From: a virus
Length of the DNA stretch: 35,026 bases
Reading direction: 5' to 3' (one strand)
Virus record (IMG/VR): IMGVR_UViG_3300021961_009547
Span: 1-35,026 of that record
This document shows, in pieces, positions 1,253 to 14,707 of this stretch. The notes under the pieces were generated by a model. That model was not told the origin of the DNA. It did no database searches and saw only the letters and a program-made list of their open reading frames with translations. Positions within the stretch are counted from its first letter, which is position 1; each line of letters begins with the position of its first letter. The position numbers and the translations under genes were made by a program.

Positions 1253-2098
1253 TTAACTTAATGATTTTACAAGATTGCGTAGTGATTGTATTTTTGGTCT
1301 ATTGGTTTGAGACAATACAGTTGAGCCAAATATCATTCCTTGGCTGTTGGTTAGTGCTTGATTATAATTTTTGTTTTGATTTTTATCGTCATCTTTAATG
1401 GTATCGCCCAATACAACAAGATTTTGACCATTTATTCGAGTAACCTCTTTCTTTTCAAGCATTTTTATTTTTGTCTCCATTGGAATGCTCGTACACTCAC
1501 GGCAAAGAGCAAACGCTGTACCCATCAATACCGATGAGTATCCAGCGTCTAATCTGCTGTGAATATCATCTCGCGACGATACTCCGCCGGTAGCAATCAT
1601 TGGTGTATTAGGAAATTCTCTTTGGCACCACTTAGCAAGTGTTATATAATCATAGGTACTAGTATCACCTGCCCCTCCAGCGTCCATGAGCTCAAAAGCA
1701 TCTGCTGTTTCTAATAAGTCACCCCAATAATCAATAGTGTCTGGCGATACATTCTTGATTATAATTTTGTTTGTTTTTTGAACTTCACGAATAGTTTGTG
1801 TTACATCTTTAACAGGAACCAGATGATTACGAGAACGTCTAAGTTGTATATAACTGTTGTTTGATAACAGTTTATCTTTATCCTCATTAACCATATGTGT
1901 ATTAACTCCGAGTATCAATCCAGTGCTGAATGTACTGTTAAACTCTACTATCTCTTCTCTAGAAATGTTATATGTTAATAAACCAGGAGTAACACCTAAT
2001 TGAGCTACATCCGCTATTAATCTATAATCGCCAATTTTGTACATTGGACTCATTGCAAATCTGTAGTTAGTAACAAGAAAATTTTCAGGTAAGGTCAT
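1253..2098 (-). CDS. Nitronate-monooxygenase-like FMN TIM-barrel protein
   Basis: The 281-residue protein follows the nitronate monooxygenase (2-nitropropane dioxygenase) plan. The N-terminal AMSPMYKIGDYRLIADVAQLG matches the family's APM and early substrate-side loop. ELMDAGGAGD (about residues 136-145) corresponds to the AGGHxG flavin loop. MIATGGVSSRDDIHSRLDAG followed by SVLMGTAF (about 167-195) is the phosphate-binding GGI...GAxxVxxGT motif for FMN. The family uses FMN to oxidise alkyl nitronates or related carbon acids. The C-terminal 50 residues, rich in Asn, Lys and Gln, match nothing I know. An IMPDH- or dihydroorotate-dehydrogenase-like enzyme is an alternative. TTAAATA stands 6 bases before the ATG and there is no Shine-Dalgarno, so the message may be leaderless. 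It diverges from the FTR1 gene. Confidence 0.7.
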   Translation of the reverse strand: MTLPENFLVTNYRFAMSPMYKIGDYRLIADVAQLGVTPGLLTYNISREEIVEFNSTFSTGLILGVNTHMVNEDKDKLLSNNSYIQLRRSRNHLVPVKDVTQTIREVQKTNKIIIKNVSPDTIDYWGDLLETADAFELMDAGGAGDTSTYDYITLAKWCQREFPNTPMIATGGVSSRDDIHSRLDAGYSSVLMGTAFALCRECTSIPMETKIKMLEKKEVTRINGQNLVVLGDTIKDDDKNQNKNYNQALTNSQGMIFGSTVLSQTNRPKIQSLRNLVKSLS

Positions 2099-2129: not shown

Positions 2130-2158
2130 TTGACACAATCTAGTTTTTGCTGTAGTAT
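2130..2158 (+). promoter_or_regulatory. Sigma70-type promoter of the FTR1/tRNA unit
   Basis: A perfect -35 TTGACA (2130-2135), a 17-base spacer and TAGTAT (2153-2158) place the transcription start near 2165. It would drive the iron permease gene and probably the four tRNAs that follow. No Fur-box-like 19-base palindrome is visible around it. Confidence 0.6.
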
Positions 2159-2163
2159 AACTA

Positions 2164-2199
2164 TGCTAGTTAAGAATTATTCGCAACTAGCAAAAGGAG
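2164..2199 (+). promoter_or_regulatory. 5' leader hairpin and ribosome site of FTR1
   Basis: Arms TGCTAGTT (2164-2171) and AACTAGCA (2185-2192) form an 8-base stem with a 13-base loop starting at the predicted transcript 5' end. The stem ends 1 base before AAGGAG (2194-2199), which is 6 bases from the TTG start. It may stabilise the message or act as an operator. Confidence 0.4.
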
Positions 2200-2205
2200 A
2201 GAACG

Positions 2206-2808
2206 TTGACAACATTATTAGCATCCACATTTGTTGTGGGCAGAGAAGGATTTGAAGCATGGCTTATCGCTATGCTGGCATTAGCATCATCGGGTGGTAA
2301 CATCCGGAACATCAGAGCAATATGGATAGCGGTTATAGCGTCTGTTATAGCCACTTTAGCGTTGGGTAGTATAACTGCCCAGTTTCTAGGAAGCCACGCA
2401 AATATAGAGCGATTTGAAGGGGTTATAGGGGTGTTTACAGGTGCTATATTGGCCTGGGTCGCATGGTTCTGTCACGGTGCTAGTCAGCACGTCAAACAGC
2501 TACCCTTCCATAATTCCGTGCTGTTAGGACTGGCAGTGTTTGGAATACTGTTCAGAGAAGGCGTAGAAGTTGTGGTGTTCCTATCAGGCATAATTGCCGA
2601 TACTCAGGACACACTTTCGGTAGGAATGGGGATTTTGGTAGGTTTGGTAATTATGGTGATAGCAGGTTTGGTGTCACACAATCAAATCAAGAAGTTTCCT
2701 GTGCGACAGATATTCAAAATAAGTCGTTGGATCTTTGGAGCACTTGCTGTATACTTTCTGTATACAGGTATTTCAGAAATAATAGAATACGGTATACTGC
2801 CCCTTTAG
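2206..2808 (+). CDS. Compact FTR1/EfeU-type iron permease
   Basis: The 200-residue, highly hydrophobic protein has both signature REXXE iron-binding motifs of the FTR1/EfeU ferric iron permeases: REGFE (residues 13-17, first membrane helix) and REGVE (117-121). It also has the family's FEG element (70-72) and a closing KISRWIFGALAVYFLYTG helix. In FTR1 proteins the paired Glu residues carry Fe3+ across the inner membrane. About seven membrane segments can be drawn, with almost no loops; typical EfeU proteins are about 70 residues longer. Translation starts at TTG, 6 bases after AAGGAG. No EfeO/EfeB-like partner is present. The final 10 bases, including the TAG stop, are also the 5' end of tRNA-Thr. 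An iron permease in a phage is unusual; raising iron supply during infection is inference. Confidence 0.88.
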   Translation: MTTLLASTFVVGREGFEAWLIAMLALASSGGNIRNIRAIWIAVIASVIATLALGSITAQFLGSHANIERFEGVIGVFTGAILAWVAWFCHGASQHVKQLPFHNSVLLGLAVFGILFREGVEVVVFLSGIIADTQDTLSVGMGILVGLVIMVIAGLVSHNQIKKFPVRQIFKISRWIFGALAVYFLYTGISEIIEYGILPL

Positions 2809-2874
2809 CTCATTAGGTAGAGCAACTGATTTGTAATCAGTAGGTGGCCTGTTCGAATCGGGCAAGGGGCACCA
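2799..2874 (+). tRNA. tRNA-Thr (anticodon UGU)
   Basis: The cloverleaf has a 7-base acceptor stem GCCCCTT/AAGGGGC, an anticodon arm ACTGA-TTTGTAA-TCAGT giving anticodon UGU, a GTTCGAATC T-loop and an encoded CCA end. Its first ten bases overlap the end and stop codon of the iron permease gene. Confidence 0.95.
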
Positions 2875-2881
2875 CAATTGT

Positions 2882-2957
2882 GGGCGTGTAGCTCAGTTGG
2901 GAGAGCACCTGATTTGCATTCAGGGGGTCGCAGGTTCGACTCCTGTCACGTCCACCA
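2882..2957 (+). tRNA. tRNA-Ala (anticodon UGC)
   Basis: The acceptor stem GGGCGTG/CACGTCC (one G-U pair), the anticodon arm CCTGA-TTTGCAT-TCAGG, the GGTTCGACTCC T-arm and an encoded CCA define tRNA-Ala reading GCA. It follows tRNA-Thr by 7 bases. Confidence 0.95.
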
Positions 2958-2960
2958 AAA

Positions 2961-3050
2961 GGAGAGATGGCTGAGCGGTTGAAAGCACCGGTCTTGAAAA
3001 CCGGCAATGGGGCAACCCATTCCAGAGTTCGAATCTCTGTCTCTCCGCCA
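2961..3050 (+). tRNA. tRNA-Ser (anticodon UGA)
   Basis: A class II tRNA with acceptor stem GGAGAGA/TCTCTCC, anticodon loop CTTGAAA giving UGA, a long variable arm (about ATGGGGCAACCCAT) and an encoded CCA. It starts 3 bases after tRNA-Ala, so the array is one transcript. Confidence 0.95.
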
Positions 3051-3056
3051 CAATGC

Positions 3057-3131
3057 GGTCCCTTCGTCTATCGGTTAGGACACGTGGTTTTCATCCTCGA
3101 AAGAGGGGTTCGATTCCCCTAGGGACCGCCA
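3057..3131 (+). tRNA. tRNA-Glu (anticodon UUC)
   Basis: The acceptor stem GGTCCCT/AGGGACC, the loop TTTTCAT with anticodon UUC, a GGGGTTCGATTCCCC T-arm and an encoded CCA give tRNA-Glu. The anticodon stem CGTGG/CCTCG has an internal T-T mismatch, unusual for a functional tRNA. All other arms are intact. Confidence 0.92.
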
Positions 3132-3152: not shown

Positions 3153-3863
3153 ATGAAATACGGACATTACTCAGACAACGAGATACCCAAACAAGATAAT
3201 CCAGAATACACGGTCAACTCCCATGGCTATCGCTGTCCAGAGTGGAAGCCAATGCCTGACGGGAAAAAGAATGTAGCAGTGTTAGGTTGTTCGCACACGT
3301 TTGGAGAAGGATTAAATGATGGAGAAGTATGGGTCGAGCAACTAGCATCCAAAACAGATGCTAGAGTTTTAAGATGGTGGAACTTAGGACAGCCAGGAGC
3401 GTCAGCAGATAAAATAGTGCGAATACTCTATGCCACAGAGAAAGTCTTGTTTCCTAAAATTATTATCGTGTGCTGGCCGCAACAGAGCCGACGAGAGCGA
3501 TTAGAAAATTACACTCAAAGTTTGACAGGAGCCAACGAGCTATTAAAAACAGAAACAGATCAAACAGATGAACAAAACTTTTTAAAGAATGTTTTCTTTG
3601 TTGAAAAGTTTGCCGAAAAACAAGATGCAAAAACTTTTCATTGTTTTGCTCAAGATGTCTATGATATCAATGCTACAAATGTTTATAGCGACACAAGTTT
3701 AAAATCCTGTTGGCCAGAGTGGGATCGTCATCATCTATCCGGAGCAAAACGAGAACATATAACAGAACCTAATCTCGCTCGTGATGGCATACACTACGGA
3801 ATAGAGCATCATAAAACTTTTGCACAAAAAATTTATAATAAATTTAAATCAAAGTTAAAATAA
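3153..3863 (+). CDS. SGNH/GDSL-family hydrolase
   Basis: The 236-residue protein shows the SGNH hydrolase blocks: GCSHTFG (residues 45-51) with the nucleophile Ser47, NLGQPGASADK (about 78-88) with the oxyanion-hole Gly, and DGIH (211-214) with the catalytic Asp/His pair. The usual GxND block is replaced by VCWPQQSR, so the Asn is not obvious. SGNH enzymes remove or move acyl or acetyl groups on sugars and lipids, which fits the glycan genes elsewhere. It lacks a signal peptide and is probably cytoplasmic. The start has TTAAATA and no Shine-Dalgarno. Its 3' end overlaps the convergent radical SAM gene by 31 bases. Confidence 0.75.
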   Translation: MKYGHYSDNEIPKQDNPEYTVNSHGYRCPEWKPMPDGKKNVAVLGCSHTFGEGLNDGEVWVEQLASKTDARVLRWWNLGQPGASADKIVRILYATEKVLFPKIIIVCWPQQSRRERLENYTQSLTGANELLKTETDQTDEQNFLKNVFFVEKFAEKQDAKTFHCFAQDVYDINATNVYSDTSLKSCWPEWDRHHLSGAKREHITEPNLARDGIHYGIEHHKTFAQKIYNKFKSKLK

Positions 3864-4870
3864 TTTTTAAATTCTATAGATCTAAAATTATCCTGCTGTT
3901 CAACATATTCTTTTAATTGAGTAGAGTTGTTAACTTTTATTGCAATTTTTTCTGCAAGATTTTTAAGTAAGATATTGTCAGAATTAATATATTTTAATTT
4001 TGCATCCACTGTTAGTTTATTACAATGAGCAATAGATAACACATTAGGAGACTCTACAATTCCATAACTGTGTTCTAGTTTGTTATCTTCGGCATATGCT
4101 ACAATCTTATCAAATTGATTTACATTGTAAACACTCACAGTAGTCCAAAGATTTAATTTTAATAATGTTGGATAAGATTGTTGAATCTGTTTATACTCTT
4201 TTATTGTGTTTTCAACATTCAAAAACTTAATAGGCCATCTCACGTAATCGTGAATATCGTTTAATCCATCGAAGCTGATTGTGATAATAATCCTAACACC
4301 TCTCTCTAGTAAAGTTATAATTGAATCAAATGTTTTGTGTGCATTAGTGTTTATTCTAACTATTTTTATATTCGTTGGTAGATTTTCTAAGATTTTTTTA
4401 TAGTTAGGACTGTAAGTAGGCTCACCCCCATTTATATCCAACTCTACAATTCTGTCAGTGGGTAACTCGTAAAATTTTTTATAGTTGTCTACTCGAACAC
4501 TATTCTTCTTTAGACTACCAATTTTAGAACTTAAATTTTCATTACAGGTTTGACAGGCGCTGTTACAAATATTATCTAATACTCCGCCCACAATCAGATA
4601 ATCTTTATTGACAGATTTTAAAATTTTATCTCTTTCAATCATATCTAATCTAATGCTACGACGGTTTATACTTTCAGTTGTTTGACATCTTGTACACTCG
4701 TCTGGCCAGATATCGTTAGACATCTTATTATCTATATTTTTTAACCACTCGCTTTTCTGCATTTCATTATATGAGTCAAATTCAGGAGGATTGACCATAT
4801 GGCCACATTTCCCTAATTTTCCTGATGGTTGTAATCTTAAAAAGTGTTTAATTCTTGGACAAAAAATCAT
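3833..4870 (-). CDS. Radical SAM enzyme with N-terminal twitch/SPASM-like domain
   Basis: The 345-residue protein has the radical SAM [4Fe-4S] motif C102-x3-C106-x2-C109 and a GGEP element (148-151) that binds SAM. Before the core, Cys4, Cys22, Cys59 and Cys62 follow the spacing of a shortened SPASM (twitch) auxiliary-cluster domain, but at the N-terminus rather than the usual C-terminus. The same order is seen in the protein at 7129-8145. Such enzymes make 5'-deoxyadenosyl radicals to modify peptides, sugars or cofactors; the substrate is unknown. It is the last gene of a minus-strand unit after the dehydrogenase and sulfotransferase genes, overlapping the latter by 23 bases. Low GC and AT-rich codons match these neighbours. 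Confidence 0.85.
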   Translation of the reverse strand: MIFCPRIKHFLRLQPSGKLGKCGHMVNPPEFDSYNEMQKSEWLKNIDNKMSNDIWPDECTRCQTTESINRRSIRLDMIERDKILKSVNKDYLIVGGVLDNICNSACQTCNENLSSKIGSLKKNSVRVDNYKKFYELPTDRIVELDINGGEPTYSPNYKKILENLPTNIKIVRINTNAHKTFDSIITLLERGVRIIITISFDGLNDIHDYVRWPIKFLNVENTIKEYKQIQQSYPTLLKLNLWTTVSVYNVNQFDKIVAYAEDNKLEHSYGIVESPNVLSIAHCNKLTVDAKLKYINSDNILLKNLAEKIAIKVNNSTQLKEYVEQQDNFRSIEFKNYFNFDLNLL

Positions 4871-5420: not shown

Positions 5421-5968
5421 TATATTTTAAAATTTATATTTGTATGAACTAATGAAATCTCAGGTATGTGAAAACTTTCTTTGGTAGATATGATTTCAAT
5501 TAATTGTTTTGCCCATTCGTCGTAGCTGTTTGCTCCAGCAGTATTATTTTTTACAGCACCCGGTCTTATGATTGTGATTTTTGGTAGACTAGATTTATGT
5601 TGTAATTGTTTTGATGATTCCTCTAATGATTGTTTTTGAATTCTATATAGACTTATATCAATCTCGTTGTGCTCTGTTTTTACGTCCACTGGGTGGGTAG
5701 TCATATGAGTTGAAATATTCCAAATCCATTTTTCTTTGCCTTGCCATTTTTTCCATACTTCGAATAATAATTCTGTTTGAGCAAATTGACTTTGAGCATT
5801 ATTGATAAAAATATCACAAGGGTCAATTAGGTTTGCGGTATGAGCAGTTCTACGAATATTTTCACCATCTCGTCTAGAAATACCAACAACGTCGTGTCCT
5901 CTAACTTGTAAAATTTCTGCGAGTGATTTGCCAATCCCGCTGGTATGGCCTGTTATTGCGATCTTCAT
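5420..5968 (-). CDS. Short-chain dehydrogenase/reductase
   Basis: With ATG at 5968 (an upstream TTG at 5974 is less likely) the product has 182 residues. It has the NAD(P) loop TGHTSGIG (6-13), NNAQ (56-59, family NNAG), Ser86 and the YxxxK catalytic pair Tyr108/Lys112, then RPGAV. This is a classical but short SDR fold that oxidises or reduces a carbonyl or alcohol with NAD(P). It leads the unit with the sulfotransferase and radical SAM genes. A TAAATA element lies 7 bases before the ATG. The divergent radical SAM gene starts 45 bases away. Confidence 0.85.
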   Translation of the reverse strand: MKIAITGHTSGIGKSLAEILQVRGHDVVGISRRDGENIRRTAHTANLIDPCDIFINNAQSQFAQTELLFEVWKKWQGKEKWIWNISTHMTTHPVDVKTEHNEIDISLYRIQKQSLEESSKQLQHKSSLPKITIIRPGAVKNNTAGANSYDEWAKQLIEIISTKESFHIPEISLVHTNINFKI

Positions 5969-5975
5969 GATCAAA

Positions 5976-6005
5976 TATTTACACTAGACAATTATAGCTT
6001 AAATA
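5976..6005. promoter_or_regulatory. Divergent pair of TAAATA/TTAAATA elements
   Basis: In the 45 bases between the divergent starts at 5968 (minus) and 6014 (plus) there is one element per strand: GTAAATA with its TAAATA at 5976-5981 on the minus strand, 7 bases from its ATG, and TTAAATA at 5999-6005 on the plus strand, 8 bases from its ATG. Neither gene has a ribosome site. Confidence 0.4.
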
Positions 6006-6013
6006 TTTCTAAA

Positions 6014-7123
6014 ATGACAGAGATCCACACAGTAGAAGCCGCATACCACCCAAAAAATAAAATGGGTTTTTTAATTGATTGGTTGTTGACTTTGAAATGT
6101 AATTACGATTGTGCTTATTGTCCAATTGGGCCAGCAGGGCACGATAATTCCACACAGCACCCTGCTTTAGATCGATGCATCACAATGTTGAAACAGATGT
6201 ATCAATACACCGATGTGATAATGGAATACAAAAAAAATGCTTTCAAAGATGCAATACTGAATGTCTATGGTGGTGAAGCACTGTATCATCCAGACATAGA
6301 AAAAATTTTAATAGAGACCACACGAGAATATGAAAAGTATTCAGCTCGTTGGAGTTTGAAAAGAAGGATAACGACCAATGCCACTGCAACAGAAAAACTT
6401 TGGCACACGGTTTGTGAGCACGTTGAAGGCATTACTTTCAGCTATCACAGCCAAGGTCCAAAAAAAATGAAAACTTTATTCAAAAAAAATATAGATCATG
6501 CTGTAAAAACAAAAAAAGAACACGACATTATTGTGTGTATGTATCCACACATAGATTATTGGCCAGACTGTTTAGATTTTTTAAAATATTGTGTTGATAA
6601 TAAGCTAAATGCCCGCCCAAAATTATTAGACGGACCAGAAGGAGTGTACACGGAGTCACAATTAGAACAACTGATTCCTTATGTAAAAAATTTTGATGCA
6701 ACCGACATACAAAAAATTAACAAAAATAAAAGAGTGGATAGTTATGGTCGTGGGTGTTGTGGCGGAAGGCAGATGTGTACAAACAGGAACATAAAAGAAT
6801 ACACAACAACAATTTCTCGTGAATTAGGATTTAAAGGATGGCATTGTTCAGCCAATCAATTTTTTTTACACGGCAATAATATCTACGGTACGTATTATAC
6901 CAACAAAGATTGTAGAATGAAATTAGATGGAACAGTTGGACCAATTGCAAACATGGACACAATGGAAAAATACATAGAGAATATGTCCAGATCAAACGAC
7001 AATAGTTTGCCAACTCTGCTTTGTGCCCAGCGGCGATGTCATTGTGGGACGTGTGCACCAAAGAGTATATACAAGCAAAATCTAAATGACATTATGAAAA
7101 TCTATAATGTATCGATCTCTTAG
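6014..7123 (+). CDS. Radical SAM enzyme with C-terminal Cys-rich domain
   Basis: I place the start at ATG 6014 rather than 5945, because the longer form overlaps the divergent gene and this ATG has TTAAATA upstream. The 369-residue product has the radical SAM motif C29-x3-C33-x2-C36 (LKCNYDCAYC) and GGEA (86-89). About ten further Cys follow in the C-terminal third (RGCCGGRQMC, WHC, CRM and CAQRRCHCGTC), enough for one or two auxiliary Fe-S clusters. The substrate is unknown. It is transcribed alone, facing the third radical SAM gene with a 5-base gap. It differs from the other two in having its extra Cys at the C-terminus. Confidence 0.85.
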   Translation: MTEIHTVEAAYHPKNKMGFLIDWLLTLKCNYDCAYCPIGPAGHDNSTQHPALDRCITMLKQMYQYTDVIMEYKKNAFKDAILNVYGGEALYHPDIEKILIETTREYEKYSARWSLKRRITTNATATEKLWHTVCEHVEGITFSYHSQGPKKMKTLFKKNIDHAVKTKKEHDIIVCMYPHIDYWPDCLDFLKYCVDNKLNARPKLLDGPEGVYTESQLEQLIPYVKNFDATDIQKINKNKRVDSYGRGCCGGRQMCTNRNIKEYTTTISRELGFKGWHCSANQFFLHGNNIYGTYYTNKDCRMKLDGTVGPIANMDTMEKYIENMSRSNDNSLPTLLCAQRRCHCGTCAPKSIYKQNLNDIMKIYNVSIS

Positions 7124-7128
7124 ATACT

Positions 7129-8145
7129 CTAAAGGTTCTTGAACCCTTTAGCCAAATATTTTGGCTCTTTGTTAAATTTTTCATGCCTGCTCTGTATTTC
7201 ATGCAGTGATTTTTTGAAACCATCTAGATCAACGAATGTTTGTTTAGTATAATCCAATGCAGTGTTCCAGTCTTGTATCTTGTTGAAATATACCTGATCT
7301 ACTTCGTATTGTTCGGCAAGTTTTATCATTTCAGGCATCTCCCACCAGTTATCCTGTTGCACGACCATATGTAACCTAAAAACAAACTTATGTTTTACTT
7401 TCAATTCTGCCATTGATTGTAAGTTTGCTTTAATTTTCTCCCACTTGCCTCCCAGTCGTAGTTTCTCGTAGGTTTCCTCTGTTGCACCATCAATGCTGAC
7501 AGCGAGCTGATTCAAATTATTAATCACGTGAGGTATCTTAGTATGAAAGTCTTGGAACATTAAACCGTTGGTCAGTATAGAGTACTTGATGTTGTCCTTA
7601 CGTGGTGTGTGTTCCATAAAATGTCTATACACATAAGATGCAAAAGGATCACCGTCTGATCCTATATGCACCTGCACAGAAGAGTTGTAATTTTCCAACC
7701 ATCTGTTAATCTTGTTTGCTAGTTTGATGCCAAGTTGTAGTTTTGTGCCTGTCTTGTGGAATATCAGATCGTTCCTGCAACTAGGACATCTAAGGTTGCA
7801 ACTGTCGTCTATGGCCAGCCTTAAATACTTAATATGATCTGCAGACGTATCTTCTATTGTTCTATGCAGTAGGTAAGAACATATCTTGTCGTTGCAGTAT
7901 CTATAGGTACCGTTGGAAACAGATAATTGCATTTCTTTTCGCAACTCCGAGCCTAATATTTCATCCAGATTATTGACTTGGAGATTGCCTATACTCTGTG
8001 GCAACCACGACTGGCATTCACAGGCATAGCACGAGCCTTGCTTGTCTATTAGTATAGTGTCAAAAGGCCGCGGACACGTAATTTTAATTTTTAAATCTTT
8101 ATTAGTGTTGATTCCGTACCAGTCAAACAGTCGTTGATTGATCAT
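7129..8145 (-). CDS. Radical SAM enzyme with N-terminal SPASM-like domain
   Basis: The 338-residue protein begins with a SPASM-like block: Cys24-Pro, Cys39, Cys42, Cys44, an IGNL element (52-55), Cys84 and Cys89. The radical SAM core C116-x3-C120-x2-C123 follows, with a strand LAVSIDGATEETYEKLR typical of the family. The auxiliary domain precedes the core, the reverse of the common order. Its start codon overlaps the stop of the 65-residue gene (ATGA at 8142-8145), so the two are translationally coupled. A peptide- or sugar-modifying role is possible; the substrate is unknown. Confidence 0.85.
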   Translation of the reverse strand: MINQRLFDWYGINTNKDLKIKITCPRPFDTILIDKQGSCYACECQSWLPQSIGNLQVNNLDEILGSELRKEMQLSVSNGTYRYCNDKICSYLLHRTIEDTSADHIKYLRLAIDDSCNLRCPSCRNDLIFHKTGTKLQLGIKLANKINRWLENYNSSVQVHIGSDGDPFASYVYRHFMEHTPRKDNIKYSILTNGLMFQDFHTKIPHVINNLNQLAVSIDGATEETYEKLRLGGKWEKIKANLQSMAELKVKHKFVFRLHMVVQQDNWWEMPEMIKLAEQYEVDQVYFNKIQDWNTALDYTKQTFVDLDGFKKSLHEIQSRHEKFNKEPKYLAKGFKNL

Positions 8146-14143: not shown

Positions 14144-14707
14144 TTATTTATTACGATTCAACAGATTCATTTGTACAACTATGGCATGAGCATATGCCAC
14201 TGCGTGTGATTTTTTAAAGAAATATGAGCCATCTTTAGGACGCACCCAAACGTCTTTTATTATGTCGGTCCAGTATCGATTAAGTAGATGTCGTTTAGCA
14301 GGACGTATAATTGCTAACACTGCCGCGAGTTGTTCTATATTTCGAGGTTCCAATTTAGCAACAATATCATAGTGTCCGTTTATGTGAAATAGTTGATCCA
14401 CTATGGTTTTGTCTTTTAACATATCCCAATCTGGTTCTTGTATCATTAATTCTACAAGTTCTGTTTCAGAGCTAACGTCTTTGTAGATACTAACATTTAA
14501 ACAATCAATTTTAAAATACCCTCTCTCTTCGGCTTTCTTATAATCTAAACTTGAATATCCAGTGATGGGATCTGTAGGAGTGTTATGAAAATAAACTCCT
14601 GTCTTATGTTTTTCAATTGTATCTTCTTTAATAATTGAAGCAGGTATATTCTTAAAAAGTTTAAGTGCTTGTTCTCTATCGTAAAAATCTATATCTACAT
14701 CAGGCAT
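14144..14707 (-). CDS. Very short DnaE-like (Pol III alpha) protein
   Basis: The 187-residue protein contains, in order, the conserved blocks of the bacterial C-family polymerase DnaE. PDVDIDF (2-8) matches the palm motif with two catalytic Asp (Asp5, Asp7). FKIDCLN (65-71) matches the third catalytic Asp region (Asp68). IEQLAAVLAIIRPAK (124-138) matches the DLxAxxALxRPG block, and FKKSHAVAYAH (164-174) the FNKSHxxAYA block. DnaE is normally over 1,000 residues; PHP, thumb, tau- and clamp-binding regions are absent and the Asp7-Asp68 spacing is about 60 instead of about 150. It may be a minimal nucleotidyltransferase or a decayed polymerase with kept motifs. It overlaps the 60-residue gene by 8 bases, inside the replication operon. 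Confidence 0.7.
   Translation of the reverse strand: MPDVDIDFYDREQALKLFKNIPASIIKEDTIEKHKTGVYFHNTPTDPITGYSSLDYKKAEERGYFKIDCLNVSIYKDVSSETELVELMIQEPDWDMLKDKTIVDQLFHINGHYDIVAKLEPRNIEQLAAVLAIIRPAKRHLLNRYWTDIIKDVWVRPKDGSYFFKKSHAVAYAHAIVVQMNLLNRNK
14145..14152 (-). promoter_or_regulatory. AATAAATA late-like element
   Basis: AATAAATA on the minus strand lies 8 bases before the GTG start at 14136. It overlaps the stop codon of the DnaE-like gene, so it may be fortuitous. Confidence 0.25.

Follow-up and report, generated by a model that had tools for sequence, protein, structure and literature searches.

Does a marine phage bring its own iron permease into the cell that it infects, and what would govern its expression? 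The question is raised by ftr1, a gene in a 35,026-nt viral fragment (IMG/VR record IMGVR_UViG_3300021961_009547, positions 1 to 35,026; hereafter the window). Iron is in limiting supply in much of the ocean, and iron in phage infection has so far mostly been discussed by way of tail-fibre iron and host transcript changes. Judged from the features collected in Table 1, ftr1 probably encodes (with a probability of roughly 0.7) a stand-alone six-helix FTR1-type iron permease, which a large myovirus-like phage would insert into the inner membrane of the infected host.

Table 1 Features of the ftr1 locus, in window coordinates.
Feature	Position	Strand	Basis or remark
sigma70-type promoter, TTGACA-N17-TAGTAT	2130..2158	+	10/12 match; aligned position conserved in clade A
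Fur-box-like 7-1-7 site, TAAGAATTATTCGCA (candidate)	2171..2185	+	Cellular matrix; between -10 box and ribosome-binding site
Ribosome-binding site, AAAGGAG	2193..2199	+	Sequence; 6 nt ahead of ftr1 TTG start
ftr1, short 6-helix FTR1-family iron permease gene	2206..2808	+	200 aa, TTG start
REXXE motif 1 (REGFE, residues 13-17, helix 1)	2242..2256	+	R13, E14, E17 invariant in 57/57 homologues
E71 of FEG element (residues 70-72), near helix 3 start	2416..2418	+	Alignment conservation
REXXE motif 2 (REGVE, residues 117-121, helix 4)	2554..2568	+	R117, E118, E121 invariant in 57/57 homologues
tRNA-Thr(TGT)	2799..2874	+	ARAGORN; 5' end overlaps last 10 bases of ftr1
Conserved neighbour, 236 aa, GCSHTFGEG motif, synteny anchor	3153..3863	+	3' of ftr1 in 10 clade A loci compared

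A phage-borne member of the FTR1 family

The original prediction was of an FTR1-type permease carried by a phage. The window protein scored 36.2 bits against Pfam FTR1 (PF03239; cut-off 25.3, E=5.5e-9), all 21 members of the alignment matched the same profile, and the search did not place the protein in another family, in agreement with that prediction. TIGR00145 aligned across residues 5-194 with 44 bits, far under its full-length cut-off; for the EfeU equivalog / full-length TIGR00145 type the scores were 44 against 303.8 and 39.9 against 255 bits. Pfam BacA, scored for the window copy only, gave 21.4 bits against the cut-off of 33.4 for BacA/UppP membership. A PDB sequence search returned no FTR1 relative, and fold searches gave no significant match; an MFS-type half-transporter fold, which occupied most VIA-align rows, was set aside with its Z of ~10 lying within the stated helical-bundle noise.

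The phage location of the gene was borne out by strong PHROGs matches to a DnaB-type helicase, primase, UvsW-type helicase, UvsX and gp32 in the same window. The window UvsX shows 66-69% identity to its counterparts in Agrobacterium phage Atu_ph07 and Sinorhizobium phage Phosso (469-490 kb) and 65% to the one in Vibrio phage 2.275.O (349 kb), and the carrier is a large myovirus-like marine phage. The record is a 35-kb fragment, and gene absences there therefore mean little.

Motifs and helix architecture of the short permease

Yeast Ftr1p is an iron permease of the same family. It is a protein of ~45 kDa with seven helices that works with the oxidase Fet3p, and in E. coli EfeU, which is 276 aa long, the helices likewise number seven and the partners are EfeO and EfeB (PMC9174327). 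The phage form shares with EfeU and the bacterial FTR1 proteins the REXXE motifs in helices 1 and 4, the 3+3 helix repeat and an acidic or Asn element at helix 3, whereas it has only 200 aa and six helices, with no EfeO-type partner on the fragments searched. Helices 1-3 and 4-6 aligned as a profile repeat (hhalign probability 95.5%, E=1.4e-8), with one REXXE motif in each. An AlphaFold2 model also has six helices (pLDDT 72.9), and the basic residues of the protein occur mostly in loops 1-2, 3-4 and 5-6, a distribution that fits an arrangement with both termini outside.

We aligned 57 viral and cellular homologues (19 viral, 11 SAR11-like and 27 other cellular rows) and found that no close relative had lost the REXXE glutamates, the R/E/E positions being invariant throughout. 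Position 71 is Glu in all 19 viral and all 11 SAR11-like rows and Asn in 16 of the 27 other cellular rows. Both REXXE motifs and the FEG element had been noted, and all are present in the window; as a conserved element, FEG holds up in part, with E71 alone invariant in the phages and G or A at position 72. Relative to the aligned bacterial FTR1s, the phage form is without an 11-residue stretch between helices 3 and 4, the C-terminal linker and helix 7, and every viral copy stops after helix 6, ahead of the seventh transmembrane helix of EfeU/Ftr1. The protein is thus rightly described as minimal, in that helix 7 and a portion of the loop joining helices 3 and 4 are absent, but small-genome alphaproteobacteria have the short form too, and it is not a phage invention.

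Iron import has so far been taken from the family name, and the permease might move another metal, such as Mn, Zn or Pb, or act in export. The FTR1 family is broad and includes the lead-uptake protein PbrT, and the aligned bacterial members are only 23-28% identical to the phage protein. Both REXXE motifs are nevertheless fully kept, and the Fur-box-like site in the phage, together with the Fur boxes on cellular short homologues (see below), points to iron; we consider a different substrate or direction unlikely.

A selected accessory gene in related phages

The same short protein is encoded by 24 further viral contigs in IMG/VR, at 36-86% identity to the window copy. These contigs fall into two subclades: identity to the window copy is 57-86% in clade A and 36-41% in clade B. 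Nei-Gojobori dN/dS values of 0.16-0.31 between the window copy and clade A members show that ftr1 is under purifying selection across related phages.

A tRNA-Thr gene lies directly 3' of ftr1 in the clade A loci scanned for tRNAs, L056 and L097 included. In the window the last 10 bases of ftr1, stop codon included, fall inside this tRNA gene, and likewise in L001-L004, while L009 and L010 have a gap. Clade B and subclade L108-L114 also end after helix 6 with no tRNA run-in, so that the truncation is not due to the tRNA overlap. The tRNA block after ftr1 (window 2799-3131; also L018, L023, L024, L025 and L027) varies by subclade, with anticodons Thr(TGT)/Ala(TGC) in one and Thr(GGT)/Ala(GGC) in the other.

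With the conserved neighbour gene as bait, 55 related phage loci were recovered, comprising 13 already-known ftr1 contigs, four more records with ftr1 and 38 fragments in which it was not detected. The presence of ftr1 in part of the loci that share the neighbour marks it as a lineage-specific accessory gene, kept where present. In L052, L064, L069, L077 and L091, which have no ftr1 there, other variable ORFs stand upstream of the tRNA-Thr/Ala block, and this stretch may be a cargo site. On the other side of ftr1, the divergent neighbour (window 1253-2098, minus strand) has a short nitronate-monooxygenase/TIM-barrel match and is a singleton among the compared loci.

Could ftr1 encode a mere non-functional membrane remnant, or be a host gene whose contig was mis-binned? 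Helix 7 is absent and these contigs carry no EfeO-type partner, as might be expected of a remnant, but the short form, the synteny and the promoter are common to many contigs, dN/dS is well under 1, phage replication genes lie on the same contigs, and a first cellular genome scan found no species genome matching the close family. We therefore regard either origin as highly improbable.

Cellular relatives

A second cellular scan returned long FTR1s only, at ~28% identity. A search through the genomes of 385 alphaproteobacteria and 369 gammaproteobacteria, the two classes sampled in this way, gave mostly long FTR1s with at most 76 bits to the viral profile; two FTR1s of 215 aa, from 1.2-Mb genomes, reached 121-124 bits. 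Within one alphaproteobacterial order the short form was present in 11 of 397 genomes, at 101-127 bits. The genomes with a short FTR1 are 1.0-1.5 Mb in size, and G+C around the gene is 0.29-0.36; the small genomes, the low G+C and the size of the order suggest that it is Pelagibacterales (SAR11). This assignment fits publications that record FTR1 in a small number of SAR11 lineages (PMC4771312; PMC12636525); an FTR1 is present in strains HIMB058 and HIMB114, and FTR1 genes in SAR11 have Fur boxes ahead of them (PMC4771312).

The SAR11-like short FTR1s (L128, L129, L152-L160) are open frames of 213-233 aa that stop just past helix 6, as in the phages, and L128 and L129 have no EfeO among their neighbours, again as in the phage loci. 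Most have Fur boxes upstream. They differ from the phage form in being cellular and in reaching only 100-127 bits to the viral profile. Among the two classes sampled they are the closest cellular relatives, and closer ones may exist elsewhere. In a tree with cellular homologues the viral proteins formed one clade (support 97/92), while a settled sister relation to the SAR11-like form did not emerge: a joint clade of the two was not rejected (AU p=0.53), and the relation is neither shown nor rejected.

Among GenBank phages, tblastn gave only unannotated, unverified Listeria records, which were discarded. One of them, L028 (OR846728.1), an unverified 'Listeria phage', encodes a full-length FTR1 of 496 aa with an EfeO-like ORF next after it and is likely, from this gene content, to be bacterial chromosome sequence; OR848119.1, OR848130.1 and OR846748.1 are further unverified 'Listeria phage' records. 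Among the papers in the library searched, none joined FTR1 with viral contigs. The name FTR1 appears for a single Geitlerinema prophage region, a doubtful one (PMC5177637).

A promoter and a candidate Fur operator upstream of ftr1

An own sigma70-type promoter had been predicted for ftr1, and the 10/12 score and the same aligned position in the clade A relatives sustain this, with the caveat that the scan yielded 14 sites in 2.7 kb against 7.8 expected by chance. The stretch from the promoter to the start holds an inverted repeat whose arms match perfectly in L001 (GTTGCGAA-CTA-TTCGCAAC) and imperfectly in the window. Its reading as an RNA hairpin was rejected, as only the right arm is kept and the left one decays. 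The comparison with Fur that follows was not blind: the inverted repeat was noticed before its Fur resemblance, and both before the test.

Ten of the cellular short ftr1 genes had upstream sequence of sufficient length, and seven of these are preceded by clear 7-1-7 Fur boxes, for example TGAGAATCATTCTCA. We built a Fur matrix from 12 cellular short-ftr1 sites and no phage sites, and its top site in the window was the one at 2171-2185, with 16.7 bits against 10.0 for the next. A site of this kind is expected 0.0005 times per 110 bp, and the gap before ftr1 is 107 bp. The matrix also placed its best site before ftr1 in L015, L016, L018, L115 and L121, and the window site stayed first after the two most phage-like cellular sites had been dropped. 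It has two mismatches to TGAGAATNATTCTCA, and the sites of the relatives have 3-5 mismatches to the canonical box. A Fur-box-like site precedes ftr1 in two of the phage subclades; with the same cellular matrix no such site was found before ftr1 in subclade L108-L114 or in L122.

Simple constitutive sigma70 control of an iron permease has to be weighed here, with the Fur-like site as a chance palindrome or the operator of another protein. L108-L114 keep the promoter without the site, a literature-style Fur consensus ranks 2171-2185 third, and in a Markov control 10 of 300 sequences of 35 kb (~3%) reached the same score somewhere. That the best site of the whole window should fall inside the gap before ftr1 argues the other way, as does clade B, which at only ~40% identity has a similar site, there between the -35 and -10 boxes. 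Constitutive expression is a real possibility, if one that we would not bet on. Fur-type control of phage ftr1 we put at even odds or slightly better. No sequence feature marks ftr1 as early-expressed, the timing first proposed; the upstream site suggests instead that ftr1 expression is tied to iron status through host Fur, in some subclades at least. The fuller proposal, that host Fur reads the promoter of the phage six-helix permease and that iron import is on only in iron-starved cells, is more tentative, at a little under even odds.

A model for iron import during infection

In the model that we propose, the two REXXE repeats would form the iron path, and the glutamates of helices 1 and 4 would carry iron from the periplasm to the cytoplasm. 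The permease would import iron without EfeO or EfeB, as its SAR11-like counterparts may; the EfeO-type M75 domain was not found in 14 ftr1-bearing records, all of them genome fragments. Iron-bound host Fur would repress ftr1, so that the permease would appear chiefly under iron shortage in the infected cell; in this way the virus may help a starved cell to go on taking up iron.

The imported iron would serve phage replication and possibly phage Fe-S proteins, such as radical-SAM-like enzymes and a ferredoxin, and it could also serve host respiration. Radical-SAM genes were present in all 14 ftr1-bearing records searched, and the link between iron and the phage Fe-S enzymes is circumstantial.

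With a viral iron permease under selection, and a candidate Fur operator of the type that precedes ftr1 in SAR11-like cells, the question of whether phages manage host iron becomes directly testable. If the Fur reading is true, a viral metabolic gene would be wired into a host nutrient sensor. As a minimal FTR1 that occurs in nature, the six-helix form also lets one ask why helix 7 and the EfeO/EfeB partners are needed elsewhere.

Other genes of the window

Near ftr1, radical-SAM-like proteins are encoded at 3833-4870 (minus strand), 5945-7123 (plus strand) and 7129-8145 (minus strand), two of them scoring below the Pfam cut-off. The window also encodes a phage ferredoxin (9913-10227, minus strand; Fer4 and DUF3470); it was dropped as a pointer to the host, its best matches being 65-67% to several alphaproteobacteria and not decisive. 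A 187-aa ORF at 14144-14707 (minus strand) had no Pfam match; it ends in KKSHAVAYAHAIVVQM, which by eye is like a bacterial DNA polymerase III alpha motif.
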